Below, piece after piece: positions 9,426 to 32,349 of a stretch of DNA of 64,000 nucleotides. The DNA comes from Bacillus marasmi (lineage in GTDB: Bacteria > Bacillota > Bacilli > Bacillales > Cytobacillaceae). The stretch covers positions 123,831-187,830 of the forward strand of contig NZ_LR656174.1 in NCBI RefSeq assembly GCF_902168435.1, in the 5' to 3' direction. Position 1 is the first letter of the stretch; every line of letters begins with the position of its first letter. The notes beneath the pieces are model-generated. The model saw nothing but the letters and a program-made list of their open reading frames with translations. It was not told where the DNA came from and searched no databases. Both the position numbers and the translations under genes were made by a program.

Positions 9426-9691
9426 AAATCCTCTATATACACAAGGATTAATTGTGTATATAGAGGACGATTGTTAACCGCGGTGCCACCTCGATTGGTT
9501 TTTGGAATTACCCATAACCCACTTTCGGCAATAAGCTTTTGGCTGTTTGCCTACATCATATAACGGTGATAACCGGATATCCTTACTACTTTTTCAGGAT
9601 TTCACTCGTAAGTCCATTCCACAAGATTACAGTACCGGCTCCCACCATCCCGGCTCTCTGAAACTGTAGGTTATTGTGTACTACTCTTACT
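9426..9691 (-). promoter_or_regulatory. Trp T-box riboswitch 2 (proximal to trpE)
   Basis: A complete T-box leader reads on the minus strand: AGAGTAGTA start of stem I, AGAGAGCCGG region, specifier loop GAATGGAC with codon UGG (9614-9616), the T-box sequence GGTGGCACCGCGG (about 9479-9491), and a strong terminator TCCTCTATATACACA/TGTGTATATAGAGGA followed by seven T. The UGG specifier marks it as responding to uncharged tRNA-Trp. It is the second of two in tandem, so readthrough into trpE must pass both terminators. Confidence 0.93.
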
Positions 9692-9721
9692 CATCGTATT
9701 AGCAATTATTTATCATAAATA

Positions 9722-9981
9722 CAAAAAGGGTCTCCCTCCTAAAAAAAGGACGAGAAACCCGTGGTGCCACCTTCATTAGCTAAAAAATTTAGCTCACTTA
9801 AAAGTATCAAAGCGTATGCTTGAATACCCGTCTCTTATAACGATGAGACCCTTCGCCAAAGCCTACTTTCCCGTTCGGGTTCAGTTTGGAGGCTCGAAAG
9901 TCCATTCACATAAATTTCCACACTGGTTCGCACCGACCACCAGCTCTCTTAAGTTTCCATTTACGCTACTACTCTTTGTCA
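9722..9981 (-). promoter_or_regulatory. Trp T-box riboswitch 1 (promoter-proximal)
   Basis: First T-box of the leader: AGAGTAGTAGCG start, AGAGAGCTGG and GGTGCGAACCAG elements of stem I, specifier loop GAATGGAC with UGG (9902-9904), the T-box AAGGTGGCACCACGG, then a terminator built on GGGTTTCTCGTCCT/AGGAGGGAGACCC followed by TTTTT. It shares the specifier with the second T-box but differs in stem sequences, so it is a diverged duplicate rather than a recent copy. Confidence 0.93.
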
Positions 9982-10006
9982 ACGCCAATTTATTGTGTTG
10001 TTAATT

Positions 10007-14007: not shown

Positions 14008-14168
14008 ATTATATCCTCCTTACATTGTTCCATGTTTACATTATTGTCTAAAACCTAGTACTTTTATCAAAAAAAAAGAATGGTAACCAGCATTAATTCA
14101 AGTATCTACTTTATTACATGTTTTTACTTTATTCCATACAAAATATTCTGTTTTTGTAGGTTTCTTTC

Positions 14169-14237
14169 CTAACACAACGAAAGCCCTGCCTCTCTTTCGT
14201 CCTTACGGCTCCTAAGCCGTTCCAGTGTGAATCAGGT
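14169..14237 (-). promoter_or_regulatory. Structured three-way-junction element upstream of cshA
   Basis: Two perfect hairpins (ACGGCT/AGCCGT with a 4-nt loop; CGAAAG/CTTTCG with a 10-nt loop) sit side by side within an outer pairing CCT..CACA / TGTG..AGG. Read on the minus strand it lies 160-230 bases before the cshA start and could be part of a long 5' UTR. The pairing also works on the plus strand, so orientation is not proven. I do not recognise it as a known riboswitch class. The rest of the 446-base gap holds only the csp terminator. Confidence 0.45.
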
Positions 14238-14409
14238 TCATAAAAAAAGTATTCAATATGCAATCATGTGGAATCCCCACAAATAATAATCAACTTCTGT
14301 TCGGAAAACGTCCTTAGAAGGGGCTTTTGAGCAAAAAGACATACACGTTTGAGGAGACTTAGCAAGAGGAACATGAAGAATTTCGATTATCATACTAAAT
14401 CATAAAAGA

Positions 14410-24824: not shown

Positions 24825-24872
24825 AAATACATGCTTAAATAAGCGTAAAAAAAGTCATTTTTTTCGCTTTTA

Positions 24873-25038
24873 TGCCTTCTCCCATCCAGACTTTACTGTC
24901 GGCTTTGGAATTACACCAAATCAACCGGATTTTAAATAATTCACAAATGTTTTTGCAAATTATGATAAAAAACCGGGTCACGGGCTTAGAGAACTTACTC
25001 ATCACCGCCGGTTGGGAATTTCACCCGACCCCGAAGGC
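24873..25038 (-). promoter_or_regulatory. FMN riboswitch aptamer (RFN element)
   Basis: On the minus strand the conserved RFN pieces appear in order: GCCTTCGGGGTCGGGTG, AAATTCCCAACCGGCGGT, AAGCCCGTGACCCG, GGTTGATTTGGTG and AGCCGACAGTAAAGTCTGG, ending GGGAGAAGGC. This matches the class well. It controls ribE-ribBA-ribH by FMN-dependent termination. The variable arm is longer than usual (about 40 bases of AT-rich sequence). Confidence 0.96.
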
Positions 25039-25092
25039 GAGATTGCCTCAATCATGAAAACGGATTGAAAAACAACCTCAACATCATCATTT

Positions 25093-30272: not shown

Positions 30273-30374
30273 ACAAAGCATATTATTTTTAAAAAATAGT
30301 AATTAAAATATTTTGTTGTCATAATAACCAATATGCGAGACTTAAACTATTATTCACATAGGGACCGATACAAC

Positions 30375-31499
30375 ATGAAAACACTATTGAAAAACGCCAA
30401 AATTTATCCGATTACTAGCCCACCCATTTTTAACGGGGATATCATGGTTGAGAACGGTAAAATCCAATCGATTGGAGTTCATCTCCCCACTGATTCAAAT
30501 ACGAAAATTATTGATTGCGATAGCCGTTTTTTATTGCCTGGCTTTATCGATGTCCATACTCATCTCGGTTTATATGACGAAGGAACTGGTTGGGCCGGCA
30601 ACGATGCCAACGAGACGATAGAACCGTTGACTCCGCATATCCGTGCACTAGACGGAGTTTATCCGTTCGATCATGCGTTTTCCGATGCGGTAAAATATGG
30701 GGTAACGACAGTGCACGTCATGCCTGGCAGCTCTAACGTCATCGGAGGTACAACCTCTGTGATTAAAACGAGTGGTTGTAATATTGCTAAAATGATGGTA
30801 AAGGAAACTGCTGGACTGAAAATCGCCTTTGGTGAAAATCCAAAAAGAATTCATAGCAACGGAAATGAAGATTCATTAACAAGGATGGGAATCATGGGTA
30901 TGCTAAGGGAAGCATTTTATAATGCAAGGCGTGAGGAAAACTATGATTCATTTAGAATGAATCCATTAATCCAGGCGTTAAATAGGGAAATCCCTGTGCG
31001 TATTCATGCCCACCGTGCTGATGACATTTTATCCGCTGTACGTCTTGCTAAGGAATTTGACCTAGATCTCAGAATCGAGCATTGCACTGAAGGCCATCTA
31101 ATTGCCTCCGAGTTATCTTCTCTGAATCTAAAGGTATCAGTCGGTCCTACTTTAACGAGGCGTTCGAAGGTTGAGTTGGTGAACAAGACCTGGAAAACCT
31201 ATCAGGTCTTAACCGAGCATGGAATTGAAGTCTCTATAACAACCGATCACCCCTATACACCGATTCAATATTTAAATTTATGTGCAGCTCTTGCAGTGCG
31301 AGAAGGTTTATCCGAGCAAAAAGCGCTAGAGGGAATTACAATCCTTGCAGCAAAAAATCTAAATATCGAGAATCGATTAGGTAGCATAGAGGTTGGCAAG
31401 GATGCCGATTTAGTTCTGTGGAATCACCATCCTTTCCACTTTCTCGCCAAGCCAAATTGGACGATGATTAATGGAAAAATTGTCTATACAAAAGTGTGA
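30375..31499 (+). CDS. Amidohydrolase family metalloenzyme
   Basis: A 374-residue protein of the imidazolonepropionase/dihydroorotase superfamily. The metal ligands are visible in sequence: GFIDVHTHLG, RIHAHRADD, IEHCTEGH and TTDHPYTP, followed by the C-terminal GSIEVGKDADLVLW. The true start is probably the ATG at 30375 (AGGGAC upstream); the frame extends 42 bases further. Substrate is unknown; enzymes of this subgroup hydrolyse cyclic amides or act on dipeptides. No partner gene is adjacent. Confidence 0.88.
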   Translation: MKTLLKNAKIYPITSPPIFNGDIMVENGKIQSIGVHLPTDSNTKIIDCDSRFLLPGFIDVHTHLGLYDEGTGWAGNDANETIEPLTPHIRALDGVYPFDHAFSDAVKYGVTTVHVMPGSSNVIGGTTSVIKTSGCNIAKMMVKETAGLKIAFGENPKRIHSNGNEDSLTRMGIMGMLREAFYNARREENYDSFRMNPLIQALNREIPVRIHAHRADDILSAVRLAKEFDLDLRIEHCTEGHLIASELSSLNLKVSVGPTLTRRSKVELVNKTWKTYQVLTEHGIEVSITTDHPYTPIQYLNLCAALAVREGLSEQKALEGITILAAKNLNIENRLGSIEVGKDADLVLWNHHPFHFLAKPNWTMINGKIVYTKV

Positions 31500-31629
31500 A
31501 AAAACTGTGACAAATTAACATATTCTTTAATAAAATTTCATAAAAATACCTATACCATTTAATAAAAAAATCTTGTATGATACGAAATGAGGAGTAAGTT
31601 TATTTCTTAAAAATTTAATATGTAAGAGT

Positions 31630-31728
31630 TTTAGGGAAGGCAAATGGTGCGCCACCAGTTTTCTGGTCCTAGTGGGTTCGATTCCCACCCCGAAATTTTT
31701 TATCAACACAAAAAATTTCGAGGGTGGG
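31630..31728 (+). ncRNA. tRNA-like leader element with alternative hairpin (possible attenuator)
   Basis: The 66 bases 31630-31695 fold as a near-complete cloverleaf: acceptor TTTAGGG/CCCGAAA (one A-G mismatch), two linking bases, D-like arm GGC/GCC with a GG in the loop, a 5-bp stem ACCAG/CTGGT with only a UUUU loop where the anticodon would be, four variable bases, and a canonical T-arm GTGGG-TTCGATT-CCCAC. It runs into TTTTTT, so the T-arm could act as a terminator. The same CCCACCCCGAAATTTTTT can instead pair with AAAAAATTTCG(A)GGGTGGG at 31710-31728. No CCA and no anticodon. It precedes a GNAT gene by about 65 bases. The remainder of the 295-base gap shows nothing else firm. Confidence 0.55.
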
Positions 31729-31794
31729 ACGGAACCGACGCGATTTCTATGCATGGGTTCAGTTTCGAACTGCCCTTATTTTGGAGGGGTTAAC

Positions 31795-32349
31795 ATGCTC
31801 AAGAAGCGGGATCTTCACGATTGTCATACTTTGTATGACTTAATGACGCACCCAGAAGTCTTCCCTTTTGTGCGCCATAAAGCGGAATGCTATGATGAAT
31901 TTGTGTTTATCACGAAGCAGACAATCGAAGCAGAAGAACGCGGTGAATTAATTTCACGTACAATTCTTGATGAATGGGGCACTCCAATTGGGACGATTAA
32001 TTTATTTGACATCCAAGACAATGCTGGTTTTTTAGGTACATGGCTAGGCAAGCCTTTTCACGGTAAAGGGTACAACAAACCCGCAAAAGACGCTTTCTTT
32101 GATGAACTCTTTTACGAGTTGAACATTGAAAGAATATTCATGCGGATAAGAAAAACCAATATTCGTTCTTTAAAGGCAGCCGAAAAACTTCCATATATAT
32201 TAAAAGCTAATGAAATTAGAAAATCCTTGTATGATCAAATAAATGCGAACGGTGAAATTTATGATCTTTATGAAATTTCAAAAGATCAATACATGTTCCA
32301 CATGTTACGAAGTAATGAACAACATCAAGAATCGTCACAATTGGCATAA
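31795..32349 (+). CDS. GNAT-family N-acetyltransferase (RimJ/RimL-like)
   Basis: A 184-residue acetyltransferase. The acetyl-CoA site is seen in GTWLGKPFHGKGYNKPAKDA (a Q/RxxGxG/A variant), followed by ERIFMRIRKTNIRSLKAAEKL, the typical beta5-alpha4 Asn-x-x-Ser region of RimJ/RimL-type enzymes. GGAGGGG 5 nt before the ATG at 31795 fixes the start; the frame runs further up through the structured leader but should not be translated. The acceptor (protein, antibiotic or other amine) is unknown. Confidence 0.85.
   Translation: MLKKRDLHDCHTLYDLMTHPEVFPFVRHKAECYDEFVFITKQTIEAEERGELISRTILDEWGTPIGTINLFDIQDNAGFLGTWLGKPFHGKGYNKPAKDAFFDELFYELNIERIFMRIRKTNIRSLKAAEKLPYILKANEIRKSLYDQINANGEIYDLYEISKDQYMFHMLRSNEQHQESSQLA

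Follow-up and report, generated by a model that had tools for sequence, protein, structure and literature searches.

A conserved leader RNA with a tRNA-like domain upstream of a GNAT acetyltransferase gene in Bacillus marasmi and its relatives

The window, by which the whole 64,000-nucleotide stretch of Bacillus marasmi DNA is meant, contains a conserved leader RNA at positions 31634–31727, upstream of an acetyltransferase gene. This gene (31795–32349, + strand) encodes a GNAT acetyltransferase of 184 aa with an Acetyltransf_3 domain (Pfam PF13302, 1.1e-14), and its Shine-Dalgarno sequence (SD), GGAGGGG, is read by eye at 31783–31789 (+). An amidohydrolase-like gene lies upstream of the element (30333–31499, +); a gene of the same amidohydrolase cluster is present near the element in 86 of 161 loci, and the gene neighbours give no clue to function. 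The intervening sequence includes a promoter-like region (31549–31582, +) composed of a CCTATAC box and the extended -10-like box TTGTATGATA, spaced 24 nt start to start. Among 188 upstream stretches, T(n)GTATnATA is found in 74 (5.2 in shuffles) and the box [AC]CTATTT, of which the window's CCTATAC is a variant as read by eye, in 79 (10.2 in shuffles). The two occur together in 46 of the 188 leaders, in all cases 24–25 nt apart start to start, which may mean a promoter of unusual type or, overlapping the -35 region, a binding site for a regulator. Judging from the -10-like box, transcription in the window would begin near 31590.

Inspection of the sequence reveals that the parts of a tRNA are present at 31634–31691 (+) in tRNA order and spacing, and the anatomy described in an earlier sequence-only reading of this DNA, a tRNA-like fold without an anticodon loop in the leader of a GNAT gene, is indeed there. 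The cloverleaf, as defined from alignments of 38 and of 100 homologues, begins with a 3-bp acceptor (GGG 31634–31636 with CCC 31689–31691), which is followed by a two-base linker (AA, 31637–31638) and by the D-like arm GGC-AAATGGTGC-GCC (31639–31653; stem 31639–31641/31651–31653), the loop of which contains GG. The anticodon-like arm (31654–31667) consists of 5 bp (31654–31658/31663–31667) closed by the 4-nt loop TTTT and has no anticodon; a 4-nt variable region connects it to the T-arm GTGGG-TTCGATT-CCCAC (31672–31688), whose loop TTCGATT is canonical. The acceptor had been read as 7 bp long, of which the inner 3 bp stand. The four outer pairs lack conservation: three or all four of them can form in 24 of 190 elements, versus 35 of 190 when random upstream bases are substituted.

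The 3′ half of the cloverleaf can pair alternatively with a complementary segment at 31710–31727. In the resulting long hairpin (31684–31727, +; CCCACCCC-GAAATTTTTT / AAAAAATTTCGA-GGGTGG), CCCACCCC GAAATTTTTT is predicted to pair with AAAAAATTTC GA GGGTGG. The upper ten pairs, which form the upper hairpin GAAATTTTTT/AAAAAATTTC at 31692–31719 (+), are compatible with both states, and the lower part captures the 3′ strand of the T-arm and the acceptor. The switching strand GAGGGTGG (31720–31727, +) would carry out this invasion, and its alternative partner would be CTGCCCT(C) or CCACCCTC ahead of the SD, the CCCT(C) of which can in turn pair with the SD. In this window the candidate anti-SD is CTGCCCTT (31770–31777, +), a possible partner of GAGGGTGG or of the SD.

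The element is widespread among relatives of the organism. A blastn search with the leader finds matches in 51 of 61 genomes, its own genome counted. A covariance model (R1) of the kind that the sequence-only reading had called for was built from 38 homologues, and it matches 304 of the 397 genomes in the order sample at E <= 0.001, the weakest best E value among the matching genomes listed being 7.7e-9. In the class sample 22 of 299 genomes match, four of the 22 in one family outside the order, and in the phylum sample 4 of 348, own genome counted, all from the same class. A pattern scan of the collection gives at least 120 matches, which come from Bacillaceae sensu lato, from Planococcaceae-like genera (Psychrobacillus and Jeotgalibacillus among them) and, in a few cases, from uncultured or oddly named sources. 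In total, 190 distinct elements were collected, 109 of them via the sequence pattern, so that invariance in this set is partly selected; because of this bias, 100 elements obtained by blastn or the model were used as well for invariance and pair counts.

A GNAT gene follows within 900 nt on the same strand after 189 of the 190 elements, and its product is 47–100% identical to that of the window. The exception (L099, in genome G108, contig G108:C23) is one of three model matches in that genome and has no GNAT gene downstream; another copy there, L098, has one. The gene that follows L099 resembles one found 3′ of the GNAT gene of L098. Among 30 genomes without a detected leader (two of which, G003 and G017, were screened by blastn alone), 28 are also without a close GNAT, with no match in 12 and only distant GNATs (35.3 bits at most) in 16, and the remaining two retain the GNAT (212 and 214 bits) with a leader not detectable by the model. 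Some three in four of the order's sampled genomes carry the RNA, which is tied almost one-to-one to the enzyme. One element with its GNAT gene (L250) is located on a 690-kb plasmid of Cytobacillus spongiae (NZ_CP089998), 3′ of an amidohydrolase gene; the plasmid annotation names the gene only as "GNAT family N-acetyltransferase" and has no RNA feature, the PLSDB table being one without RNA genes. A mobile element was considered and rejected, as this is the one plasmid record with the element and no phage record carries it.

The region 31630–31735 folds better than 200 of 200 dinucleotide shuffles (z -4.4). The cloverleaf by itself is not unusually stable (z -0.97, with 36 of 200 shuffles as good), and in the sequence comparison conservation is the stronger evidence for the element than folding energy. 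In the alignment of 100 elements (89 distinct rows), which was fitted to the structure and thereby favours the pairing score, 99.0% of the cells of the cloverleaf and upper hairpin pair, 13 of 26 pairs are changed on both sides, and 0 of 500 shuffles and 0 of 6 slid versions reach the observed covariation. The same test with a MAFFT alignment of 38 homologues gives 98.1% pairing, both-side changes at 9 of 26 pairs and 0 of 500 shuffles. Double changes in the 100 elements are distributed over the upper hairpin (8 of 10 pairs), the anticodon-like arm (3 of 5) and the T-arm (2 of 5). The acceptor and the D-stem do not covary because they hardly vary, two of the three pairs being invariant in each, so that the case for these helices comes from conservation and the tRNA register. 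The T-loop is letter-perfect in the 100 elements, and the D-like arm is nearly invariant in both stem and loop. The sequence-only reading had held that its proposal would fall if homologues lacked compensatory changes or kept an anticodon loop and a CCA end; compensatory changes were found, and no CCA end is present in the homologue sequences displayed.

Across the 190 elements the T-arm occurs as GTGGG with CCCA(C/T) in 180 and as GTAGG with CCTAC in 10, three of which came from outside the pattern search; uncompensated mixed forms are found in none of the 190, although the search pattern admitted them. One GTAGG/CCTAC carrier is a Salirhabdus (L211), and the other nine include Planococcaceae-like organisms. 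L262 has the T-arm ATGGG/CCCAT. The helix P1 (GGGAA/TTCCC) returned by RNAalifold is a less likely alternative to the T-arm, since in the species with GTAGG/CCTAC a double change preserves the T-arm and turns P1 into G-U; P1 may still be part of the OFF state. Across the D-arm lies a rival hairpin, GGTG/CACC, as well conserved as the arm itself (190 of 190). It turns up in the OFF fold predicted for the window and may, like P1, belong to that state. The anticodon-like arm varies in length and loop among homologues. An extension of about 60 nt is accommodated in this arm in L028 (1074–1225) and a long insertion in the upper hairpin in L030 (924–1081), with the tRNA-like core almost untouched in both.

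Despite its tRNA-like register, the element does not qualify as a tRNA gene: ARAGORN calls no tRNA in the window, none of the 81 matches that the Rfam tRNA model RF00005 gives genome-wide (E up to 10) is on the window's contig, and the outer acceptor pairs are not conserved. Additionally, no Rfam 15 family attains its cut-off at the element, which agrees with the earlier statement that no described class looks like this. Two matches below cut-off were dismissed as local resemblances, one to the Bacteroides sRNA BTnc231 (23.9 bits versus a gathering score of 80.4, E 0.0074, mostly over the long hairpin) and one to the T-arm of tmRNA (12.8 bits versus 47, E 0.0032 and 0.00062). The element's description was not found in the literature searched, for which some terms were narrow and subscription papers were mostly beyond coverage. 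In a word search of the main text of two motif surveys (PMC8632094, PMC2864571), "tRNA-like", "GNAT" and "acetyltransferase" are absent. The element is a real and widespread leader RNA with a tRNA-mimic domain, undescribed within the literature searched, and its architecture is well supported.

The tRNA to which the element is likely nearest is tRNA-Gly. For the best 42 of 86 off-target matches of model R1 the target is a tRNA gene every time (35 tRNA-Gly, 5 tRNA-Trp, 1 tRNA-His and 1 tRNA-SeC); with a match from the class sample (L097) added, all 43 checked matches are tRNA genes and 36 are tRNA-Gly. At seven tRNA-bearing loci, four of which were chosen through a T-arm match, the seven best model scores belong to tRNA-Gly, followed by tRNA-His. 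Pairwise alignment with the tRNAs of five loci of the own genome, for which the scores are rough, places tRNA-His first and tRNA-Gly next, and the 16-mer of the T-arm is identical in the own-genome tRNA-Gly(UCC) and tRNA-His genes. The element may descend from tRNA-Gly.

The proposal of two mutually exclusive folds in the sequence-only reading is backed by sequence comparison for both the helices and their mutual exclusion. Its further suggestion that one state is terminator-like is not supported in this window, in which the long hairpin is followed by GACGG and not by U, and no GC hairpin with a direct U-tract exists in either state that would make the element an intrinsic terminator or attenuator. 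A T-run of at least four within the 18 nt after the GGG of the long hairpin is present in 14 of 183 leaders. The run of six T after the cloverleaf was rejected as a terminator tract, as it belongs to a covarying helix and is replaced in relatives by other paired letters, e.g. GAATAATAATTC in L031; the run keeps a length of six or more in 141 of 190 elements, so that the argument from replacement depends on the remaining ones. In 33 of 183 leaders, the window's not among them, the final 12 nt ahead of the start codon contain a T-run of at least five, and a terminator could be located there, judging from their sequences. The observation of the element as such is confirmed as real and extends further than first described, and the interpretation attached to it is partly supported.

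The switching strand matches the anti-SD of its own leader more closely than those of other leaders. For 145 unique leaders, the helix score with the own anti-SD is 18.6, compared with 17.3 +/- 0.17 for permuted partners, and 0 of 5000 permutations are as high, in a test that ignores relatedness and for which 13 of the 190 elements were dropped beforehand. The own partner exceeds the mean of swapped partners in 99 of the 145 leaders and does not in 46. For the 35 non-consensus switching strands the values are 16.7 and 15.2, with 2 of 5000 permutations as high, and matched pairs of strand and anti-SD include GAGGGTAG/CTACCCTC in L164 and TGGGGCAG/CTGCCCCA in L197. In forced folding of 171 leaders, the predicted energies, which cover secondary structure and leave out tertiary contacts and ligand, place the long hairpin below the cloverleaf in 170, with a median difference of 6.9 kcal/mol. 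At least three of five SD positions are predicted to be paired in 162 of the 171 leaders in the hairpin state versus 91 in the cloverleaf state; the SD is free with the cloverleaf and masked with the hairpin in 73, the reverse applies to 2, and it is masked in both states in 89. When growing transcripts of 62 leaders, drawn from every third element, are folded, the mean probability of the T-arm stays at 0.97 as long as the switching strand has not emerged; it drops to 0.32 directly behind the GGG of this strand and to 0.08 within a few more bases, and for the complete leader it is 0.12.

Some leaders have a reduced long hairpin or none, so the output stage is not shared by all. In L094–L096, which are Planococcaceae-like, the competition is reduced to the CCC/GGG part, and in L268–L270 the cloverleaf is intact with no long hairpin evident by eye. 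Judged by eye, the 5′ strand of the T-arm could instead pair with the SD region in these three leaders, where the logic may differ. The retention of the cloverleaf sequence in L268 and L269 without the long hairpin suggests that it is constrained by more than the competition, and across the leaders compared, conservation reaches further in the cloverleaf than in the output stage.

The GNAT product reaches no cut-off in NCBIfam and has no match in PADLOC-DB. The best solved relative of its profile is MccE (E 4.8e-7), followed by RimJ/RimL-type and polyamine acetyltransferases. The protein is acidic (median pI 5.4, charge -6.9, n=175), which weighs against direct RNA binding and autoregulation. 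A distant GNAT homologue is encoded by Bacillus phage G (JN638751, 469298–469705, gp657; 34.6% identity, E 1e-14).

T-boxes are leader RNAs of Bacillota that centre on recognizing tRNA and have mutually exclusive expression platforms, in which they resemble the element; they bind a tRNA, whereas the element imitates one. The T-box model (RF00230, with Stem I and T-box sequence) has no match at the element, and its only matches in the window are at 9460–9703 and 9743–9991. These are two tandem T-box leaders on the - strand (134.7 and 136.4 bits), and Rfam matches in the window also comprise an FMN riboswitch at 24870–25042 (-) and the BsrC sRNA at 14164–14250 (+). The yjdF riboswitch (Rfam RF01764), which binds azaaromatic ligands, is a leader RNA of another kind; its model gives no listed match in 31500–31900 or 31625–31700 (E up to 10), and 10 homologous loci likewise yield none with an E limit of 1. 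As described in PMC9142559, the ON state of yjdF is a tRNA-like fold with a D-loop/T-loop elbow; when it is off, the T-loop region is paired to the SD, and acetyltransferases are named among the genes that it controls. The element resembles yjdF in being a leader RNA with a tRNA-shaped fold as its proposed ON state. It differs in that yjdF blocks the SD with the T-loop region itself and has its ligand site in a purine-rich J1/2, whereas the element has a separate switching strand and an anti-SD, and its acceptor and D-stem are joined by 2 nt that read AA in 100 of 100 elements and leave no extended purine-rich J1/2. The yjdF riboswitch is the clearest precedent, and the element works like it and is not a member of its class, given the missing model match and J1/2.

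In the thrS operator, ThrRS represses its own synthesis via anticodon-like hairpins; both RNAs are mRNA leaders with tRNA-like parts, and the element lacks an anticodon and retains the elbow. The thrS operator is named in PMC8394870 as a translational operator with tRNA-like features, and the same paper describes YrlA, in which a tRNA-like domain resembling the D, T and acceptor arms lies within another RNA. YrlA is, in that account, a separate RNA that binds Rsr, whereas the element is an mRNA leader, and the Rfam YrlA match at the element is below cut-off (13.1 bits versus a gathering score of 69, E 1.8) and covers the T-arm and a few bases after it. The tRNAOther of Bacillus cereus, a tRNA-like element in a longer RNA with a proposed regulatory role, was also compared and set aside, as PMC3399842 gives it a Trp anticodon, a position flanking a pathogenicity island and a proposed effect on many genes.

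Taken together, the predicted energies and the sequence comparison suggest that the element is probably a cis-acting, riboswitch-like RNA in which the cloverleaf is the ON state, the long hairpin is the OFF state and an effector stabilizes the former. A conserved aptamer-like domain and an expression platform, the features by which a riboswitch is recognized, are identifiable here only from such comparison and energies. We infer the folding order, the direction of the switch, the translational output and the need for an effector as follows. The tRNA-like cloverleaf would form first during transcription, and the emerging GAGGGTGG would then displace the acceptor and T-arm by strand exchange to give the long hairpin, upon which CCCT(C) would pair with the SD and the GNAT would be off. 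In some relatives the OFF state may include a terminator; the output would mostly be masking of the SD. A ligand or factor recognizing the tRNA-like elbow or fold would stabilize the cloverleaf, and GAGGGTGG would remain free to pair with the anti-SD, which would leave the SD open and allow translation of the GNAT. A small molecule and a tRNA-binding macromolecule, such as the ribosome, RNase P or a T-loop modification enzyme, are about equally likely as the effector. The sequence-only reading had put forward a tRNA-binding factor, an RNase P or Z activity or an elongation factor as candidates for what is sensed; of these, RNase P or Z in the simple form appears less likely because just three acceptor pairs are retained.

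Other explanations can be weighed against this switch. Under autogenous control the GNAT would recognize tRNA, perhaps glycyl-tRNA in the manner of AtaT, and attach to the mimic in the leader of its own mRNA. This would be consistent with the nearly one-to-one linkage (189 of 190), with the 28 of 30 genomes without a detected leader that also have no close GNAT and with the predominance of tRNA-Gly in the off-target matches (36 of 43 checked). It seems unlikely, however, as the GNAT is acidic whereas AtaT binds tRNA through a positively charged interface; the mimic moreover has no CCA end, the GNAT has no match in PADLOC-DB, and two genomes keep the GNAT with no detectable leader. The cloverleaf may instead act as a constitutive translation enhancer or ribosome standby element, with the long hairpin as a kinetic by-product or level tuner, and PMC9142559 reports a 2- to 6.3-fold increase of in vitro translation from tRNA elements positioned ahead of an SD. 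A by-product would need neither the covariation of the upper hairpin nor the fit of the switching strand to its own anti-SD, and the chance of this reading is small.

An intrinsic RNA thermometer, or a sensor of Mg2+ or transcription speed with no dedicated ligand, would exploit the difference in predicted stability between the two states, the AU-rich upper hairpin and a cloverleaf predicted to form first. Such a device would presumably not require near-invariant D- and T-loop sequences, and it is considered quite improbable. The identity of the T-arm 16-mer with the own tRNA-Gly(UCC) and tRNA-His genes could also be expected of a decayed or captured tRNA, i.e. a functionless pseudogene or integration scar. 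That origin is very improbable in view of conservation across the order at a fixed site ahead of one gene, the compensatory changes, the invariant T-loop and nearly invariant D-loop of the 100 elements, and the lack of a match to the Rfam tRNA model.

Returning to the effector-stabilized switch, a more specific form of it can be advanced tentatively and with a rather low probability: the element would be a new orphan leader class, a decoy of the tRNA elbow nearest to tRNA-Gly, that reports a free elbow-binding factor or a drug disturbing tRNA contacts and switches on a GNAT answering a disturbance of tRNA or aminoacyl-tRNA, possibly by acetylating aminoacyl-tRNA or an aminoacyl-nucleotide, given that MccE is the best solved relative of its profile. 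If this were true, the mRNA would monitor the condition of the translation machinery through competition with tRNA and not by binding it. After yjdF, the element would be another tRNA-shaped cis-regulator, one with a strand-exchange design, and it allows reporter constructs to address directly what in the cell recognizes a tRNA elbow carried by an mRNA.
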